From: Kiloniellaceae bacterium
GTDB taxonomy: Bacteria; Pseudomonadota; Alphaproteobacteria; Kiloniellales; J153
Reading direction: 5' to 3'
Length of the DNA: 64,000 bases
Assembly (NCBI GenBank): GCA_021776175.1
Contig: JAJFGJ010000035.1
Span: 1-64,000, forward strand
Made by a program: the position numbers and the translations under genes. Shown piece by piece: positions 55,957 through 61,913 of the stretch. The notes beneath the pieces are model-generated. The model saw only the letters and a program-made list of their open reading frames with translations. It made no database searches and was not told the DNA's origin. The first letter of the stretch is position 1. The number at the start of each line of letters is the position of its first letter.

Positions 55957-57411
55957 ATGTCTAAAAGCACTGTCACACGGCGGCTGGCGGCGGTCTTGGC
56001 CGCGGATGTTGTCGGCTATAGCCGTCTTATGGGCGTGGACGAGATTGGCACTTTGGTAGCCTTGAAGGGGCATCGCGGGGCGCTTATCGATCCAGCTATC
56101 GTGGGCCATCATGGGCGCATCGTCAAAACGACGGGCGACGGTATGCTCGTTGAATTCGCAAGCGTTATCGACGCGGTTAGTTGCGCGGTCGCGATACAGC
56201 GCGGAATGGTCAGCCGCAACGCCGGAATTCCAGAAGAAACGCGCATTGTTTTCCGTATCGGCATTAACGTCGGCGACATCATCATCGACGGCGACGATAT
56301 CTTCGGCGACGGCGTGAACGTCGCCGCGCGGCTGGAAACACTTTGCGAACCGGGCGGCTTGTGCATTTCCAGAACCGCGAACGATCAGATCAGAGACAAG
56401 CTTTCGCTTTCCTTCGCCGATCTTGGCGAGCAAGCAGTCAAGAACATCTCGCGCGCGGTCGGTGTGTTCGGTCTCGGGGCAAAAGATATAGCCTCTCTCC
56501 CCGAGGAAGATTTGCCGGCGGTTCAGGGGCAGGCCGGAGGCTACAACGGCGGCCGGCCCGAATCCCACGGCGAGCAACAAGAGATCAAGTTCTGCATCGC
56601 GCCCGACGGCGCCCAGATCGCCTATGCGACAGTGGGATCGGGACCTTCGCTGGTCAAGGCGCCGAACTGGATGAGCCATCTGGAATATGAGTGGCAAAGT
56701 CCGATCTGGAGGCATTTACTTGGCGAGCTTGGCAGAGACCACACCCTAGTTCGATTCGACCAGAGGGGGGGCGGCCTATCCGATTGGGATGTGGAAGATA
56801 TTTCCTTTGAAGCCTTCGTGGCCGATTTGGAAACCGTGGTCGACACCTTGAAGCTGGAACGCTTTCCGTTATTTGGGGTTTCCCAAGGCTGCGCGATTTC
56901 GATCGCCTATGCGGTGCGCCATCCCGAGCGCGTCAGCCAGCTCATCCTATACGGTGGCTTCGCCCGGGGCCCCTACAAGCGAGGCCAAGCCGAGAGAGAG
57001 CAGAACCAAGCCATGCTGACATTGATCAAGCACGGCTGGGGCCAGGACAATCCAGCCTTTCGGCAAATGTTCACCTCCAGATTCATCCCCGGGGGCACCC
57101 ATGAGCAAATGGAGTGGTTTAACGTGCTTCAACGCGAAAGCGCTTCCGCCGAGAATGCCGTGCGGCTGCGCGAGGCCGTTTGCAACTTTGAGGTGACGGA
57201 TCTGCTATCTCAGGTATCGGTTCCAACGCTGGTTCTGCATTGCAGGGATGACGCCATCGCACCCTTCAACGAAGGACGGCGCATGGCGGCGGGAATCGCG
57301 GGTGCGCGATTTGTCCCTCTGGAGGGGGGCAATCATTTGATTCTGGAGCACGAACCTGCCTGGGCGCATTTTCAGGAAGAGGTTCGAAATTTTCTCCAAG
57401 CCTCGGCGTAG
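55957..57411 (+). CDS. Class III nucleotide cyclase fused to an alpha/beta hydrolase
   Basis: A 484-residue two-domain protein. Residues about 8-180 are a class III adenylate/guanylate cyclase: metal Asp in LAADVVGYSRL, GDGMLVEF, and IFGDGVNVAARLE with the transition-state Asn-Arg. Residues about 210-484 form an alpha/beta hydrolase: FDQRGGGLSDW, nucleophile Ser309 in GVSQGCA, and a late His in GGNHLILEHEP. There is no membrane segment. The hydrolase could act as a sensor (ligand binding) or be an active esterase controlled by the cyclase. It is preceded by a terminator and followed by the minus-strand basic protein gene. Confidence 0.87.
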   Translation: MSKSTVTRRLAAVLAADVVGYSRLMGVDEIGTLVALKGHRGALIDPAIVGHHGRIVKTTGDGMLVEFASVIDAVSCAVAIQRGMVSRNAGIPEETRIVFRIGINVGDIIIDGDDIFGDGVNVAARLETLCEPGGLCISRTANDQIRDKLSLSFADLGEQAVKNISRAVGVFGLGAKDIASLPEEDLPAVQGQAGGYNGGRPESHGEQQEIKFCIAPDGAQIAYATVGSGPSLVKAPNWMSHLEYEWQSPIWRHLLGELGRDHTLVRFDQRGGGLSDWDVEDISFEAFVADLETVVDTLKLERFPLFGVSQGCAISIAYAVRHPERVSQLILYGGFARGPYKRGQAEREQNQAMLTLIKHGWGQDNPAFRQMFTSRFIPGGTHEQMEWFNVLQRESASAENAVRLREAVCNFEVTDLLSQVSVPTLVLHCRDDAIAPFNEGRRMAAGIAGARFVPLEGGNHLILEHEPAWAHFQEEVRNFLQASA

Positions 57412-57693: not shown

Positions 57694-57760
57694 GAGTTGC
57701 GCGCCCGGCTCACGTTTCGCGACCGCCTCCAACTCCCGCTGGAGGCGGCGCCAAGCGTGG

Positions 57761-57970
57761 TTAGTCGACGACGGACAGGTTCTCGGCGGAAGTCTTGCCG
57801 TTCTGTCCGGCCTGAAGCTCGAAAGAGACCTTCTGGCCTTCGGTGAGCGTGGACAGTCCGGCGCGCTCAACGGCCGAAATGTGGACGAAGGCGTCCTTGG
57901 AGCCGTCTTCCGGCTCGATGAATCCGTAACCCTTGGTCGGGTTGAACCACTTAACAGTACCAGTAGCCAT
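57761..57970 (-). CDS. Cold-shock domain protein CspA-like
   Basis: A 69-residue single cold-shock domain that binds single-stranded RNA or DNA. RNP1-like KGYGFIEP and RNP2-like DAFVHIS are intact, and the domain starts [11 protein letters not shown]. The ATG at 57970 gives [10 protein letters not shown]; an ATG two codons upstream is also possible. AGAGGAAA precedes the start. The 5' leader runs back into a 690-nt gene-poor stretch, as is common for cold-shock genes. Confidence 0.95.
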
Positions 57971-57976
57971 AGTCAT

Positions 57977-58661
57977 TTCCTCTAACAGAAGTATCGATCC
58001 CGCAGTGTCGCACCATGTGACGTCGCGGCCAGTTTAACGTCCACATTGTCAGGGGATAACTAATCAATCGGCGTACCGGTCACTTAGATAGCTCGAAACG
58101 AATGCAACACGTTCAAGAGCAGCATGTAGAGGGATTCCCCAAGAAGTCAATGACCCGCGCGGATGCGCGCCGATTGGCGGCTACCGCCCGCCAGGGCCAC
58201 GCCCGGTCGCGAAGGGCCGGCGAGGAGCTGAAATAGTGAGCCGAAACAATGGCATAATGAAATATTGGGGAGTGCCGGAGGTAAAGAAAGGAAGGGCATA
58301 ACCCGGAAAATTTTCCTTATGGATACTGTGGAAATATTCCGGCGAAACGTTTTGCCAGGGTTGAACCGTTTGTATGTTCCGGTCCCACCGGCCATGAAAG
58401 ACACCGCGGGCGAACAAGCACGGCGAGTATCGCGGGCAAGCCGCCTTGAGGAATATTTCAAGGGTTGAGATGGCCGCCGTGGGTGATTTCGGGGGCATTG
58501 GATGTCGCGCCGGGGACATGATGCCTATTTCAAATGATTGATATTGCTCCATGAATTAGGAGAAACATACGATAGTATGTATTGTGGCTACCCCCGAGGA
58601 AGCCATATTGATAGGATTTCCTTGGGATTGGGAACTATCGGGGGTTTGGGGAGAATGTCAG
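57977..58661. other. Gene-poor, relatively AT-rich stretch
   Basis: This 685-nt gap holds the cspA leader at its left end and two small plus-strand reading frames: one at 58102-58236 (44 residues, Arg/Ala/Gly-rich) with no clear ribosome site and one at 58319-58468. No dispersed repeat, RNA gene or terminator was identified. The right end (58560-58660) is likely to hold the hemerythrin promoter. Confidence 0.5.
58319..58468 (+). CDS. Possible small protein of 49 residues
   Basis: A short reading frame beginning MDTVEIFRRN, with a Pro-rich centre (YVPVPPAMKD) and a charged helical end (RASRLEEYFKG). An in-frame reading extends to 58265. No family is recognised, and the ribosome site is weak (CCGGAAAATTTT). 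It may be real or chance. Confidence 0.3.
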   Translation: MDTVEIFRRNVLPGLNRLYVPVPPAMKDTAGEQARRVSRASRLEEYFKG

Positions 58662-59081
58662 GTGAAAACGCTTGGGTGGTTAAAGTCGTTTGAGACCGGG
58701 AACGCCTTCATTGACGATCAACACAAAAAACTTCTGTTATGCCTGAAAGAATTAGCGATTCTTGTTGGCCAAGCGAAAAGTGAGGAAACCCACGCCAAAT
58801 GCCAGGAGTTACAGCACTTGGTAGACTCCCACTTCGCGGATGAAGAGAGCTTTCTGCGCGACTCCGATTTTCCGCGCCTGGACAAACATGTTGCTCAGCA
58901 TCTGGAATCATCGGAAAGCTTCAATCGCATATGTAGCTCATGCGAGGACGCCTGCAAGGGCAACAGTGCCGGTCCCTGCTTACCGAATTTGGCCATCGTG
59001 CTTGTCGACCATTTCTTGCAAGGCGATTTGGATTTCAAGTCCTTTCTCCAGATGAAGGGCTTGGCGAACGGCAACCATTAA
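58662..59081 (+). CDS. Bacteriohemerythrin
   Basis: A 139-residue hemerythrin, a diiron O2-binding protein. The ligand set is complete in order and spacing: His21 (DDQHKKLL), His57 and Glu61 (SHFADEE), His76 and His80 (KHVAQH), His117 and Asp122 (DHFLQGD). I chose the GTG at 58662, which starts MKTLGWLKSFETGN as in the family; a reading from 58584 adds 26 non-conserved residues. Four extra Cys (91, 94, 98, 106) form an unusual cluster in the loop before the last helix and may bind metal or form disulfides. Confidence 0.9.
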   Translation: MKTLGWLKSFETGNAFIDDQHKKLLLCLKELAILVGQAKSEETHAKCQELQHLVDSHFADEESFLRDSDFPRLDKHVAQHLESSESFNRICSSCEDACKGNSAGPCLPNLAIVLVDHFLQGDLDFKSFLQMKGLANGNH

Positions 59082-59212
59082 GGCCCGCCGCCGGGGCGAT
59101 CCAGGGACACAATATCCAATCGATGTGAATTCAGCCCGCATGGCCGCGTGAGGCGGCTTGGCGAAGCGGCGCCTGCCAGGTGTGGGCGGGGCTTTGCTTT
59201 GGCGTGTCGGCG

Positions 59213-59668
59213 CTACGCGAGCTGACCAATCTGATAAGACTTCAAGAGTTCAAGAAGATCCTTTGGAATTTGGGGCCAAGTGTATTGGCCCTGTTTCACC
59301 CATGATATTGTTTCTTCCACGCCCTTCAATTTGAGCACCTGTTCCAGCAGTTCATCGTGCGGGTAGAGAAACCAGTCGTTATCATGGGAGAAAGCGATGT
59401 GGAGGTCCTTCCCGCGATACTTCTTGTCAAAAGACAGCCTGCTCTTCAATTGGACCTTCAGGAAGGTTTCGCCATCAACGTGCTGTGCTATGAAATCTGC
59501 TCCCTGCCAGTCGTCAGTCAGGCGCAGGGTCATGAAGCCGTAGTCCGCAAGGACGGCGGAGACCTTCAGGAAGTTATAATTCTCCTTTTGGCGCGCATTG
59601 AGGTCTTTGTACGGGATGGGGGAAAGTGTCATGGGCACATCTACGCTTTTTGTCCAATGGCGCGGCAC
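59213..59668 (-). CDS. Nuclease-fold-like protein of the nrd-linked module
   Basis: A 151-residue protein of unknown function. After a helical start (LNARQKENYNFLKVSAVLAD) comes GADFIAQHVDGETFLKVQLKSR, which fits the D...QxK pattern of PD-(D/E)XK nuclease-fold proteins, including many in defence and restriction genes. The ATG at 59668 is 42 nt after the upstream gene; 59632 is an alternative start. Composition is less GC-rich than in flanking housekeeping genes. Last gene of the three-gene module behind nrdB. The fold call is tentative. Confidence 0.65.
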   Translation of the reverse strand: MPRHWTKSVDVPMTLSPIPYKDLNARQKENYNFLKVSAVLADYGFMTLRLTDDWQGADFIAQHVDGETFLKVQLKSRLSFDKKYRGKDLHIAFSHDNDWFLYPHDELLEQVLKLKGVEETISWVKQGQYTWPQIPKDLLELLKSYQIGQLA

Positions 59669-59709
59669 ATACGGCGCAATACGCTTACGCTATCGCGCCC
59701 TACGCGGAC

Positions 59710-60702
59710 TCATTCCGCCCCGGGGAAAAGATTGAGCGAGCGCCGTAAAGTCGCAACGAGTTCACGGCTAAAGTCGTCAGCATCATTGACGGACCAAAGA
59801 ACTGTTGTGCAGTGGTTCGTGTCGAAATGAGTTGTAGCTTCTGAAAATTTCTCTTTCTCACAGATGTAAATGACAGGCTTGCCCAATCCTTCCGCATAGC
59901 CAGCTTCCCAATAGGCGCCGGAATTGTCGTGGGTAAGGTCGACAATTACGAACGCCGAGTCGCGAATCTGTGTTCGCATGATGTTGTCGATGATTCCAGC
60001 ACGAGCCACGTCGCGCATGTCCATGATGTCGTAGCCGATGCCGTTTTTCACTGATGGCTTTACTATGTCTTTGACGAATGGATCGAGCCTAGCATCCTCG
60101 AACTTCATGGCAATGAAGCCGTACTTTCCCACAACTTCTCCGCGCTTCTCCGCTTCGTAGCGTTTCCATCCGTCTAGCGTGAGATTGGCGTTCAAGATGT
60201 TTGGCGGTGTTGACAGCGTAGTTCTGTTAATACCATCAATTATGCCGCGTGCTTTAAGCTCGATGGCGAGTTCTCCAGCAAAGGTTGGATTGGGCGCGCC
60301 AATGATTGAATAGAGTTCCACAGGTAGGGATTGTACCCGTTCGCCAGACCGCGAGACCTCATCTCCAATGTATCTGATAAGATTCGTCGCCTGGTTCGCG
60401 GGCGTTGGCCCCGAACAACCATCTCCAACAAAGTGATGAACGAATTCAGAAGTCAGCTTTGGTCGACTGGTAGAACCCGAAGATTCACTTGTCCTTACCC
60501 GATGTGCGAGGAGAGCGCGACATAATGGAGAGAGGTTGTGCCCCGCCCCGGATTCGGGATTCAGAAAATCCTCCCAAGCCTCTTCGGAAAGGGCGAAGCG
60601 ACCGCACACGGGACAGTCGACGCGATAACCACCCCCAGCGGCGATCACCTGAGCTGGCGGTGAATGTTTATTGAGGCAGACTGGGCAGGTCGCGAGCGTC
60701 AT
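59710..60702 (-). CDS. Zinc-ribbon protein with nucleoside deoxyribosyltransferase-like domain
   Basis: A 330-residue protein. A zinc ribbon at the N-terminus has Cys6/Cys9 and Cys30/Cys33 (CPVC...CPVC). The middle (about 60-190) is helical and unassigned. The C-terminal part (about 195-330) resembles the nucleoside 2-deoxyribosyltransferase fold: FIAMKFEDARLD, VIVDLTHDN and GAYWEAGYAEGLGKPVI, where Glu266 sits at the position of the catalytic nucleophile. Such domains cleave or sense nucleosides and occur in phage-defence proteins. Start overlaps the small Cys protein by 4 nt. Confidence 0.75.
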   Translation of the reverse strand: MTLATCPVCLNKHSPPAQVIAAGGGYRVDCPVCGRFALSEEAWEDFLNPESGAGHNLSPLCRALLAHRVRTSESSGSTSRPKLTSEFVHHFVGDGCSGPTPANQATNLIRYIGDEVSRSGERVQSLPVELYSIIGAPNPTFAGELAIELKARGIIDGINRTTLSTPPNILNANLTLDGWKRYEAEKRGEVVGKYGFIAMKFEDARLDPFVKDIVKPSVKNGIGYDIMDMRDVARAGIIDNIMRTQIRDSAFVIVDLTHDNSGAYWEAGYAEGLGKPVIYICEKEKFSEATTHFDTNHCTTVLWSVNDADDFSRELVATLRRSLNLFPGAE

Positions 60703-60944
60703 GGTCGTAGACTATAAAACCCTTTCGAGTTTTGTTCCGGAATTGGAAGGCCTTTTGCTTCTAGATGACTGAGAAACTTCGCCTCATAAGTTGGGCCCAC
60801 GCCATCCCAGCTTGCATTGAGGCATATCTTACACAAGGCAATCTGAGACTTGGAAATATGCTTTCCGTCGTATCTGTGCGGTCCGAACTGGAATTTCCGT
60901 TCGCAAAAAACGCACGATACCATAACAGGAAACTCGATAGTCAT
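60699..60944 (-). CDS. Small four-cysteine zinc-finger-like protein
   Basis: An 81-residue protein with Cys11/Cys14 and Cys38/Cys41 (CVFC...CKIC), fit for one zinc. It starts 9 nt after the nrdB stop, behind GGGGGAAG, and overlaps the next gene by 4 nt (ATGA). Thus it links the ribonucleotide reductase transcript to the deoxyribosyltransferase-like gene. No family is recognised. Confidence 0.72.
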   Translation of the reverse strand: MTIEFPVMVSCVFCERKFQFGPHRYDGKHISKSQIALCKICLNASWDGVGPTYEAKFLSHLEAKGLPIPEQNSKGFYSLRP

Positions 60945-60953
60945 CTTCCCCCC

Positions 60954-61913
60954 CTAATCGAACGCCTCGTCCCACGTCCCTTGCGTCGCCGCCCTTGAAT
61001 ACTCGGTCGCTCGGTTTTCGAAGAAGTTGGCGTGTTCGACGCCGTTGAGCATGGCGTCGAGCCAGGGCAGGGGGTTCTTTTCGCCGCGGTACAGGGGTTG
61101 CAGGCCGAGCTGGGTCAGGCGGCGGTCGGCGATGTAGCGGATGTAGGCCTTGACCTCGCCGGCTTCCAAACCTTTGACGCCGCCGAGTTCGAAGGCCAGG
61201 TCGATGAAGGCGTCCTCGTGGGTGACGATGGTCTCGCAGGCCTTATAGAGGTCGCGCTCGAACTCGGGTGTCCAGATTTCCGGGTTCTCGGCGATGAAGG
61301 TGCGGAACAGGCGGATGATCGACAGGGTGTGCAGGGATTCGTCGCGCACCGACCAGGTGATGATCTGGCCCATGCCCTTCATCTTGTTAAAGCGCGGAAA
61401 GTTCAAAAGGATCGCGAAGCTGGCGAAAAGTTGCAGCCCTTCGGTAAAGGCGCCGAAGACCGCCAGGGTGGTGGCGATATCCTTCTTGGTCTCGACCCCG
61501 AAGGTCTGCATGTAGTCGTACTTGTCCTTCATTTCCTTGTAGCGCAGGAAGGCCGAGTACTCGGTCTCGGTCATGCCGATGGTATCGAGCAGGTGCGAAT
61601 AGGCGGCGATGTGGAAGGACTCGGTGTTGGAAAAAGCGGCCAGCATCATCTGCACCTCGGTCGGGCCGAAGACGCGCGCGTAATGCTTCATGTAGCAGTT
61701 GTTGACCTCCACATCCGCCTGGGTGAAGAAGCGGAAAATTTGGCTAAGCAGGTTTTTCTCGCCCGGCGTCAGGTTGCGTTGCCAGTCCTTCACGTCATCG
61801 GCGAGCGGCACTTCCTCCGGCAGCCAGTGGATGCGTTGCTGCATCAGCCAGGCGTCGTAGGCCCAGGGATAGCGGAACGGCTTGTAAACCGGATTGGCGT
61901 CGAGCAGGGACAT
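60954..61913 (-). CDS. nrdB: Class Ia ribonucleotide reductase beta subunit
   Basis: A 319-residue R2 subunit that holds the diiron centre and tyrosyl radical used by NrdA. Ligands: Asp67, Glu98, His101, Glu158, Glu192 and His195; the radical Tyr105 is kept (ESFHIAAYSH). I chose the ATG at 61913, with GAAGG eight bases upstream; a reading from 61949 adds 12 residues that come from a repeat region. nrdA lies upstream on the same strand, separated by 190 nt that contain two dispersed repeats. The three-gene module follows directly. Confidence 0.95.
   Translation of the reverse strand: MSLLDANPVYKPFRYPWAYDAWLMQQRIHWLPEEVPLADDVKDWQRNLTPGEKNLLSQIFRFFTQADVEVNNCYMKHYARVFGPTEVQMMLAAFSNTESFHIAAYSHLLDTIGMTETEYSAFLRYKEMKDKYDYMQTFGVETKKDIATTLAVFGAFTEGLQLFASFAILLNFPRFNKMKGMGQIITWSVRDESLHTLSIIRLFRTFIAENPEIWTPEFERDLYKACETIVTHEDAFIDLAFELGGVKGLEAGEVKAYIRYIADRRLTQLGLQPLYRGEKNPLPWLDAMLNGVEHANFFENRATEYSRAATQGTWDEAFD

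Follow-up and report, generated by a model that had tools for sequence, protein, structure and literature searches.

Three accessory genes, probably acquired horizontally, at a variable site behind nrdB in a Kiloniellaceae bacterium

In the Kiloniellaceae bacterium studied here, three uncharacterized genes (A, B, and C) follow nrdB on the same strand, packed closely enough to resemble an operon. Their place behind the gene of an enzyme that makes deoxynucleotides raises the question of whether they work together with ribonucleotide reductase or owe their position to something else. The initial annotation of the 64,000-nt stretch that was analyzed (the window; assembly GCA_021776175.1, contig JAJFGJ010000035.1, positions 1 to 64,000) took the first view and suggested a dNTP-sensing or anti-phage module. 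We compared the locus with about 700 sampled genomes and with plasmid, phage, and viral collections; the genome of the window is about 90% complete, and the trio is available from this genome only.

The nrdB junction and the variable site

The core gene nrdB, coding for the beta subunit of class I ribonucleotide reductase, lies at 60954 to 61913 on the minus strand (NF007186, E = 8.7e-173), with its start set at ATG 61913 (the ORF tool runs on to GTG 61949). Orthologues 85 to 97% identical were found in seven of eight family relatives, the remaining one being an incomplete genome without a match. Gene A begins after a junction of 9 nt (60945 to 60953, minus strand), and it is here that homology to the relatives ends. 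The G-run of this junction, GATTAGGGGGG, is the 3' flank of nrdB behind its stop and doubles as the ribosome site for gene A. Since the congeners G002 and G003 both have the G-run behind nrdB without having gene A, it appears to be older than gene A. A ribosome site had been correctly recognized ahead of gene A, but it is part of the nrdB flank and not the gene's own.

In the family relatives, homology likewise ends within about 9 nt of the nrdB stop, and the DNA beyond differs from genome to genome. On the far side, a convergent hemerythrin-domain gene (58584 to 59081, plus strand) has a 65% identical homologue at the corresponding place in a third congener, G001, where nrdB is followed by a small PAS-like gene (an assignment by eye, with no match in Pfam), then by a gene of the glyoxalase family, and then by the hemerythrin gene. 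This homologue anchors the far side, so the variable segment of the window (59132 to 60945, no strand assigned), which runs from the end of the hemerythrin-side homology with G001 at 59131 to the nrdB flank, corresponds to other genes there. In G002, about 870 nt behind nrdB containing a cspA-like stretch lead to a second 3' end of nrdB, 172 nt long and with 91% identity to the genome's own nrdB, and in G003 about 1.4 kb precede a second 3' end that is shorter and more diverged. Both truncated copies (L030:12437-12614 in G002, L031:11230-11313 in G003) are in direct orientation, 0.9 to 1.4 kb behind nrdB, where they flank inserted DNA; they suggest that insertion or duplication has recurred at nrdB. 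From these comparisons, we infer that the site behind nrdB is one of recurrent insertion or rearrangement, and such a variable site would explain the position of the three genes. An island made by an integrase was considered and rejected: neither an integrase nor a terminal repeat bounding the segment was found, the window has no flanking repeat of nrdB, and duplicates of the nrdB 3' end occur only in G002 and G003.

The composition of the three genes probably reflects acquisition from elsewhere. Their GC and GC3 are 0.46 and 0.46 (A), 0.53 and 0.55 (B), and 0.50 and 0.66 (C), versus 0.60 and 0.87 for nrdB; the 44 ORFs of at least 200 aa in the window average a GC3 of 0.78 (standard deviation, 0.09). 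The inserts of G001, G002, and G003 are AT-rich as well. The lower GC reported at first thus holds relative to nrdB, but the hemerythrin gene next door is equally low (GC 0.50), and its homologue in G001 is also low in GC. Scans for consensus promoters and terminators yielded no more than in shuffled sequences.

Two other features were observed on the far side of the hemerythrin gene. One is a gene at 55957 to 57411 (plus strand) in which an adenylate/guanylate-cyclase-like domain is fused with an alpha/beta hydrolase domain (Pfam). The other is a match to the Rfam cspA thermoregulator at 57719 to 58050 (minus strand), over a cspA-like gene at 57761 to 57976, with E = 5e-7 and 37 bits, which falls short of the gathering score (78).

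Gene A codes for a rare four-cysteine protein

Gene A (60699 to 60944, minus strand; 81 aa) lies 9 nt behind nrdB and overlaps gene B by 4 nt (ATGA), exactly as first read together with the frames and their order. All three reading frames are intact, with the catalytic and cysteine positions kept. The two CxxC pairs of gene A are invariant in six homologues and form a probable zinc site. No match was found in Pfam, NCBIfam, PHROGs, or PADLOC. Homologues elsewhere are located behind uvrA (overlap of 4 nt), lysC (0 nt), and a STAS gene (overlap of 4 nt). Gene A is a member of a rare four-cysteine family, assigned to no known family, that adjoins core genes directly on their 3' side. Same-strand neighbor genes in bacteria are often as close as −4 to +9 nt, and we therefore claim no enrichment of such tight spacing behind core genes.

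Gene B codes for a putative nucleotide- or NAD-cleaving enzyme

Gene B (59710 to 60702, minus strand; 330 aa) combines an N-terminal zinc ribbon (C6, C9, C30, and C33), a winged-helix-like middle part, and a C-terminal domain of the NDT/DrHyd/TIR-like type. This last domain matches PF05014 with E = 4.7e-5 and 23.9 bits, below the Pfam curated cut-off of 28.8, and differs from the NDT proteins of that family also in being fused to the zinc ribbon and the winged helix. In 17 homologues, with identities as low as 19%, Glu266, D255, Y264, and an E-A-G-x-A motif do not vary. Glu266 lies within an E-x-G-x-A motif, as does the catalytic Glu of PF05014; the stretch that contains this nucleophile-type residue, GAYWEAGYAEGLGKP, aligns it with the corresponding Glu of Rcl/DNPH1. 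The structure model is of moderate quality (pLDDT 66.5, pTM 0.46) and shows a Rossmann-like fold resembling that of the NDT and DrHyd-TIR-SLOG proteins. Its top structure matches are NDT, MilB, Rcl/DNPH1, and TIR, with E values of only about 1e-3. The NDT-like fold proposed at the outset is in agreement with this model, and with moderate confidence gene B can be placed in the TIR-DrHyd-SLOG class. Members of DrHyd linked to biological conflicts have been described as NADase effectors or ADP-ribosyl cyclases, and the substrates of other members include a wider set of nucleotides (PMC9503650). Gene B probably codes for a nucleotide or NAD N-glycosidase.

Gene B also matches the PADLOC "Effector/TIR" model, with "Effector" at 1.1e-7, and its combination of NDT-like domain and winged helix recalls the NDT and WH parts depicted in retrons (PMC12548924). 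It could be a stand-alone relative of the type II (Eco1-like) retron effectors, kept inactive by a factor other than a reverse transcriptase. The predicted domain order of zinc ribbon, winged helix, and NDT-like domain differs, however, from that of the retron proteins, the zinc ribbon is an extra element, no reverse transcriptase (PF00078) was detected in the approximately 90% complete genome, and no msr RNA was detected near the three genes with Rfam, which covers few retrons. A retron proper was rejected because neither the reverse transcriptase nor msr/msd RNA was detected, and a stand-alone relative of the retron effectors seems unlikely.

The neighborhoods of gene B homologues are diverse. 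They lie behind thyX (overlap of 1 nt), thiC (overlap of 1 nt), and a moeB-like gene (71 nt). Short-form relatives are found 5 to 31 nt behind type IIG restriction enzymes (L005, L009, and L010) or ahead of HEC-01-like genes (L008 and, by synteny with the same ATPase, L007). The restriction-linked forms have no zinc ribbon; hence, they constitute a subfamily and are not direct counterparts of gene B in the window. Of 11 close long-form loci inspected, one (L096) has an evident conflict-type neighbor. There (L096:4724-7017), the homologue stands behind a 441-aa gene whose product has a DrHyd-like N terminus and a TPR-S domain, with an overlap of 4 nt, which by sequence makes two nucleotide-cleaving-type proteins in tandem. 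The thyX-linked homologue, from Roseovarius aestuarii (L006:5959-6978), begins 1 nt inside the thyX stop and has an in-frame stop after about 84 codons; this copy is possibly a pseudogene or the product of a sequencing error.

The thyX case bears on the proposal that the three genes are a dNTP-linked defense module, in which the deoxynucleotide products of NrdAB would be sensed or destroyed by A and B, and C would respond by cutting DNA. The ATGA overlap of A and B, their place behind nrdB, and the NDT-like fold of B are all in its favor, as is the occurrence of one further B homologue directly behind a dNTP-synthesis gene; nonetheless, that homologue carries an in-frame stop, the other hosts of B are thiC, moeB-like, and restriction genes, and chance could account for a single dNTP gene alongside about a dozen other contexts. 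We accordingly rejected an enrichment of B beside dNTP genes, thyX being the sole case besides the seed, with a broken copy, and the association not significant. Defense by dNTP sensing has a precedent in Clover, which senses dTTP and for which phage escape mutations map to dmp and nrdA/nrdB (PMC12265719). The likeness to Clover (CloA/CloB) is confined to the idea of coupling defense to deoxynucleotide pools, whereas A, B, and C have neither a Pfam HD-type dNTPase nor CloB nucleotidyltransferase domains. Considering also that the nrdB neighborhood is found only here, that the trio is unique in the sample, and that a repeat and the revised spacing separate C from the other two (see below), the dNTP-linked module is very unlikely. 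In a narrower version, A and B would be coupled in translation and make deliberate use of the nrdAB transcript, with the small zinc protein A restraining B, and B consuming deoxynucleotides or NAD+ when a phage disturbs the product pool of the reductase. We regard this as very improbable; if true, the pair would be a defense unit wired to the expression of ribonucleotide reductase.

Gene C codes for a putative DUF4365-like nuclease behind a repeat

Gene C was first read as a 151-aa frame (59213 to 59668, minus strand) starting at GTG 59668, 41 nt behind gene B. That distance is right for this GTG, but close homologues start at residues 13 to 15 of the 151-aa frame and the GTG stands directly behind a palindromic repeat (59673 to 59702); for these reasons, ATG 59632 is most likely the start, giving a protein of 139 aa (59213 to 59632) and a gap of 77 nt, with the repeat in between. 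The repeat (minus strand) is a dispersed, REP-like element that recurs elsewhere in the genome and is absent from shuffled sequences. It forms a stable hairpin, the 71 nt around it folding with −34.3 kcal/mol (z = −2.9). One copy is present in G001, in the corresponding region downstream of nrdB.

The protein matches DUF4365 with E = 0.0026 and 18.3 bits, below the Pfam cut-off of 24.3. The residues E29, D58, Q73, and K75 (151-aa numbering) are invariant in 10 sequences and provide the acidic and QxK/ExK positions of the active site. The model (pLDDT 82) shows the PD-(D/E)xK fold and matches I-Ssp6803I, Hjc resolvases, and the SPARDA DUF4365 nuclease (Foldseek; best E = 3.6e-4), in line with the nuclease-like fold suggested initially. 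In the DUF4365 nuclease TmuRE, Q62 and K64 (QxK) have been taken as active-site residues, and its complex with Argonaute degrades DNA nonspecifically (PMC10810196). Gene C shares the QxK and the core with TmuRE and matches SPARDA chains but, unlike these nucleases, it is a stand-alone protein, with no APAZ domain or nearby Argonaute.

Relatives 49 to 53% identical to gene C are the second gene in operons of two Paracoccus plasmids (L068:5260-11645 and L069:5270-11633) and a viral contig (L076:2279-8672), where an MmeI-type IIG methyltransferase, the C-like nuclease, a DEAD/DEAH helicase, and a GIY-YIG nuclease follow one another. PADLOC was confident on the methyltransferase only, and the operon is possibly an undescribed multigene restriction variant. 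Other relatives lie behind a truncated methyltransferase (on a Thioclava plasmid) or near a terminase-like gene (L077, assigned by eye), and on other plasmids C-type genes stand alone, apart from restriction or terminase-like genes. Gene C most likely codes for a small DNase of the kind present in the MmeI-type restriction operons, although in the window it has no methyltransferase, helicase, or GIY-YIG gene beside it.

Alternatively, B and C might once have been accessory proteins of a larger system, such as one of MmeI type, that has lost its core enzyme; they would then be remnants of a degraded restriction or defense island and may now be nonfunctional passengers. In favor of this, relatives of B and of C are each found with type IIG enzymes in other places, C-type genes occur on their own as well, and one MmeI-type enzyme is coded on another contig of the same genome (contig C30, G000:C30:164119-165006; open frame of 1,228 aa). 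The only copies of B and C in the genome are those in the window; therefore, neither accompanies this enzyme. Neither an MmeI-type methyltransferase adjacent to the three genes nor a remnant of one was recognized in the segment, and the three frames with their catalytic and cysteine positions are intact, which argues against decay. A degraded island seems rather unlikely on this evidence.

Homologues are rare and scattered

In the phylum sample (398 genomes, including that of the window), A was found in 5, B in 18, and C in 3, most B matches covering the C-terminal domain only. The class sample (289 genomes) had B in 7 and A in 6, and the order sample (58 to 61 genomes) had A in 2 and B in 4, with C solely in the genome of the window. 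No second genome with the trio was found among the approximately 700 sampled, nor was a homologue of A, B, or C found beside nrdB in any other of these genomes or in the plasmid, phage, and viral collections. One genome (G470) codes for gene A and a distant gene B, on separate contigs. Homologues of the three genes are each rare, scattered, and at differing places, and there is no fixed partnership among them. A conserved nrdB-linked module was rejected on these grounds. The initial annotation had named conservation of the neighborhood as a check on its reading, and in this sample the homologues turned out to be neighbors neither of each other nor of nrdB, the outcome it had itself set against a shared function. 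With the trio confined to one genome and the position explained by the variable site, the proposed module and its tie to dNTP supply or sensing were not borne out.

A phage origin was also rejected, since tblastn of the three proteins against 50,697 phage records gave no match; C-like genes are nonetheless present in four IMG/VR contigs. Single-sequence PDB searches returned matches at chance level only.

Origin and possible role of the three genes

It seems likely that A, B, and C are accessory genes that reached a variable insertion site by horizontal transfer and are carried on the nrdB transcript, with B a stand-alone conflict-type enzyme and C a DNase. Speaking against this explanation are the scores of B and C under the Pfam cut-offs, the moderate model of B, the scarcity of conflict-type neighbors among the long-form B loci, the lack of an integrase or terminal repeat at the borders of the segment, and the availability of the trio from a single genome. 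The three genes would have landed directly behind the nrdB stop. Read-through from nrdAB would then provide the transcript of A and B, which are joined by the ATGA; the G-run in the nrdB flank would serve A as ribosome site, and the translation of A and B would be coupled. The NDT/TIR-like domain of B may split a nucleotide or NAD+ at the N-glycosidic bond via Glu266, and the zinc ribbon and winged helix may control this domain by binding nucleic acid or a partner. Gene C, behind the hairpin repeat and with its own start, would act as a small DNase, as expected from its family. The benefit would most likely be defense against phages or plasmids, with nrdB giving expression and a landing site and no functional partnership. 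Such a role is plausible because B resembles a nucleotide- or NAD-cleaving enzyme and C a DNA nuclease; of the anti-phage role suggested initially, this much stands for C and, mainly in one subfamily, for B, but not as a shared or dNTP-linked module.

What stands at this variable site is thus a set of new members of kinds already known. The locus illustrates that genes may line up like an operon behind a core gene of metabolism through insertion at such a site and not through shared function; here, even the apparent ribosome site belongs to the flank of the old gene. Two families open to testing also emerge, one of zinc-ribbon/winged-helix/NDT-like proteins and one of DUF4365-like nucleases, both with relatives beside type IIG enzymes elsewhere.
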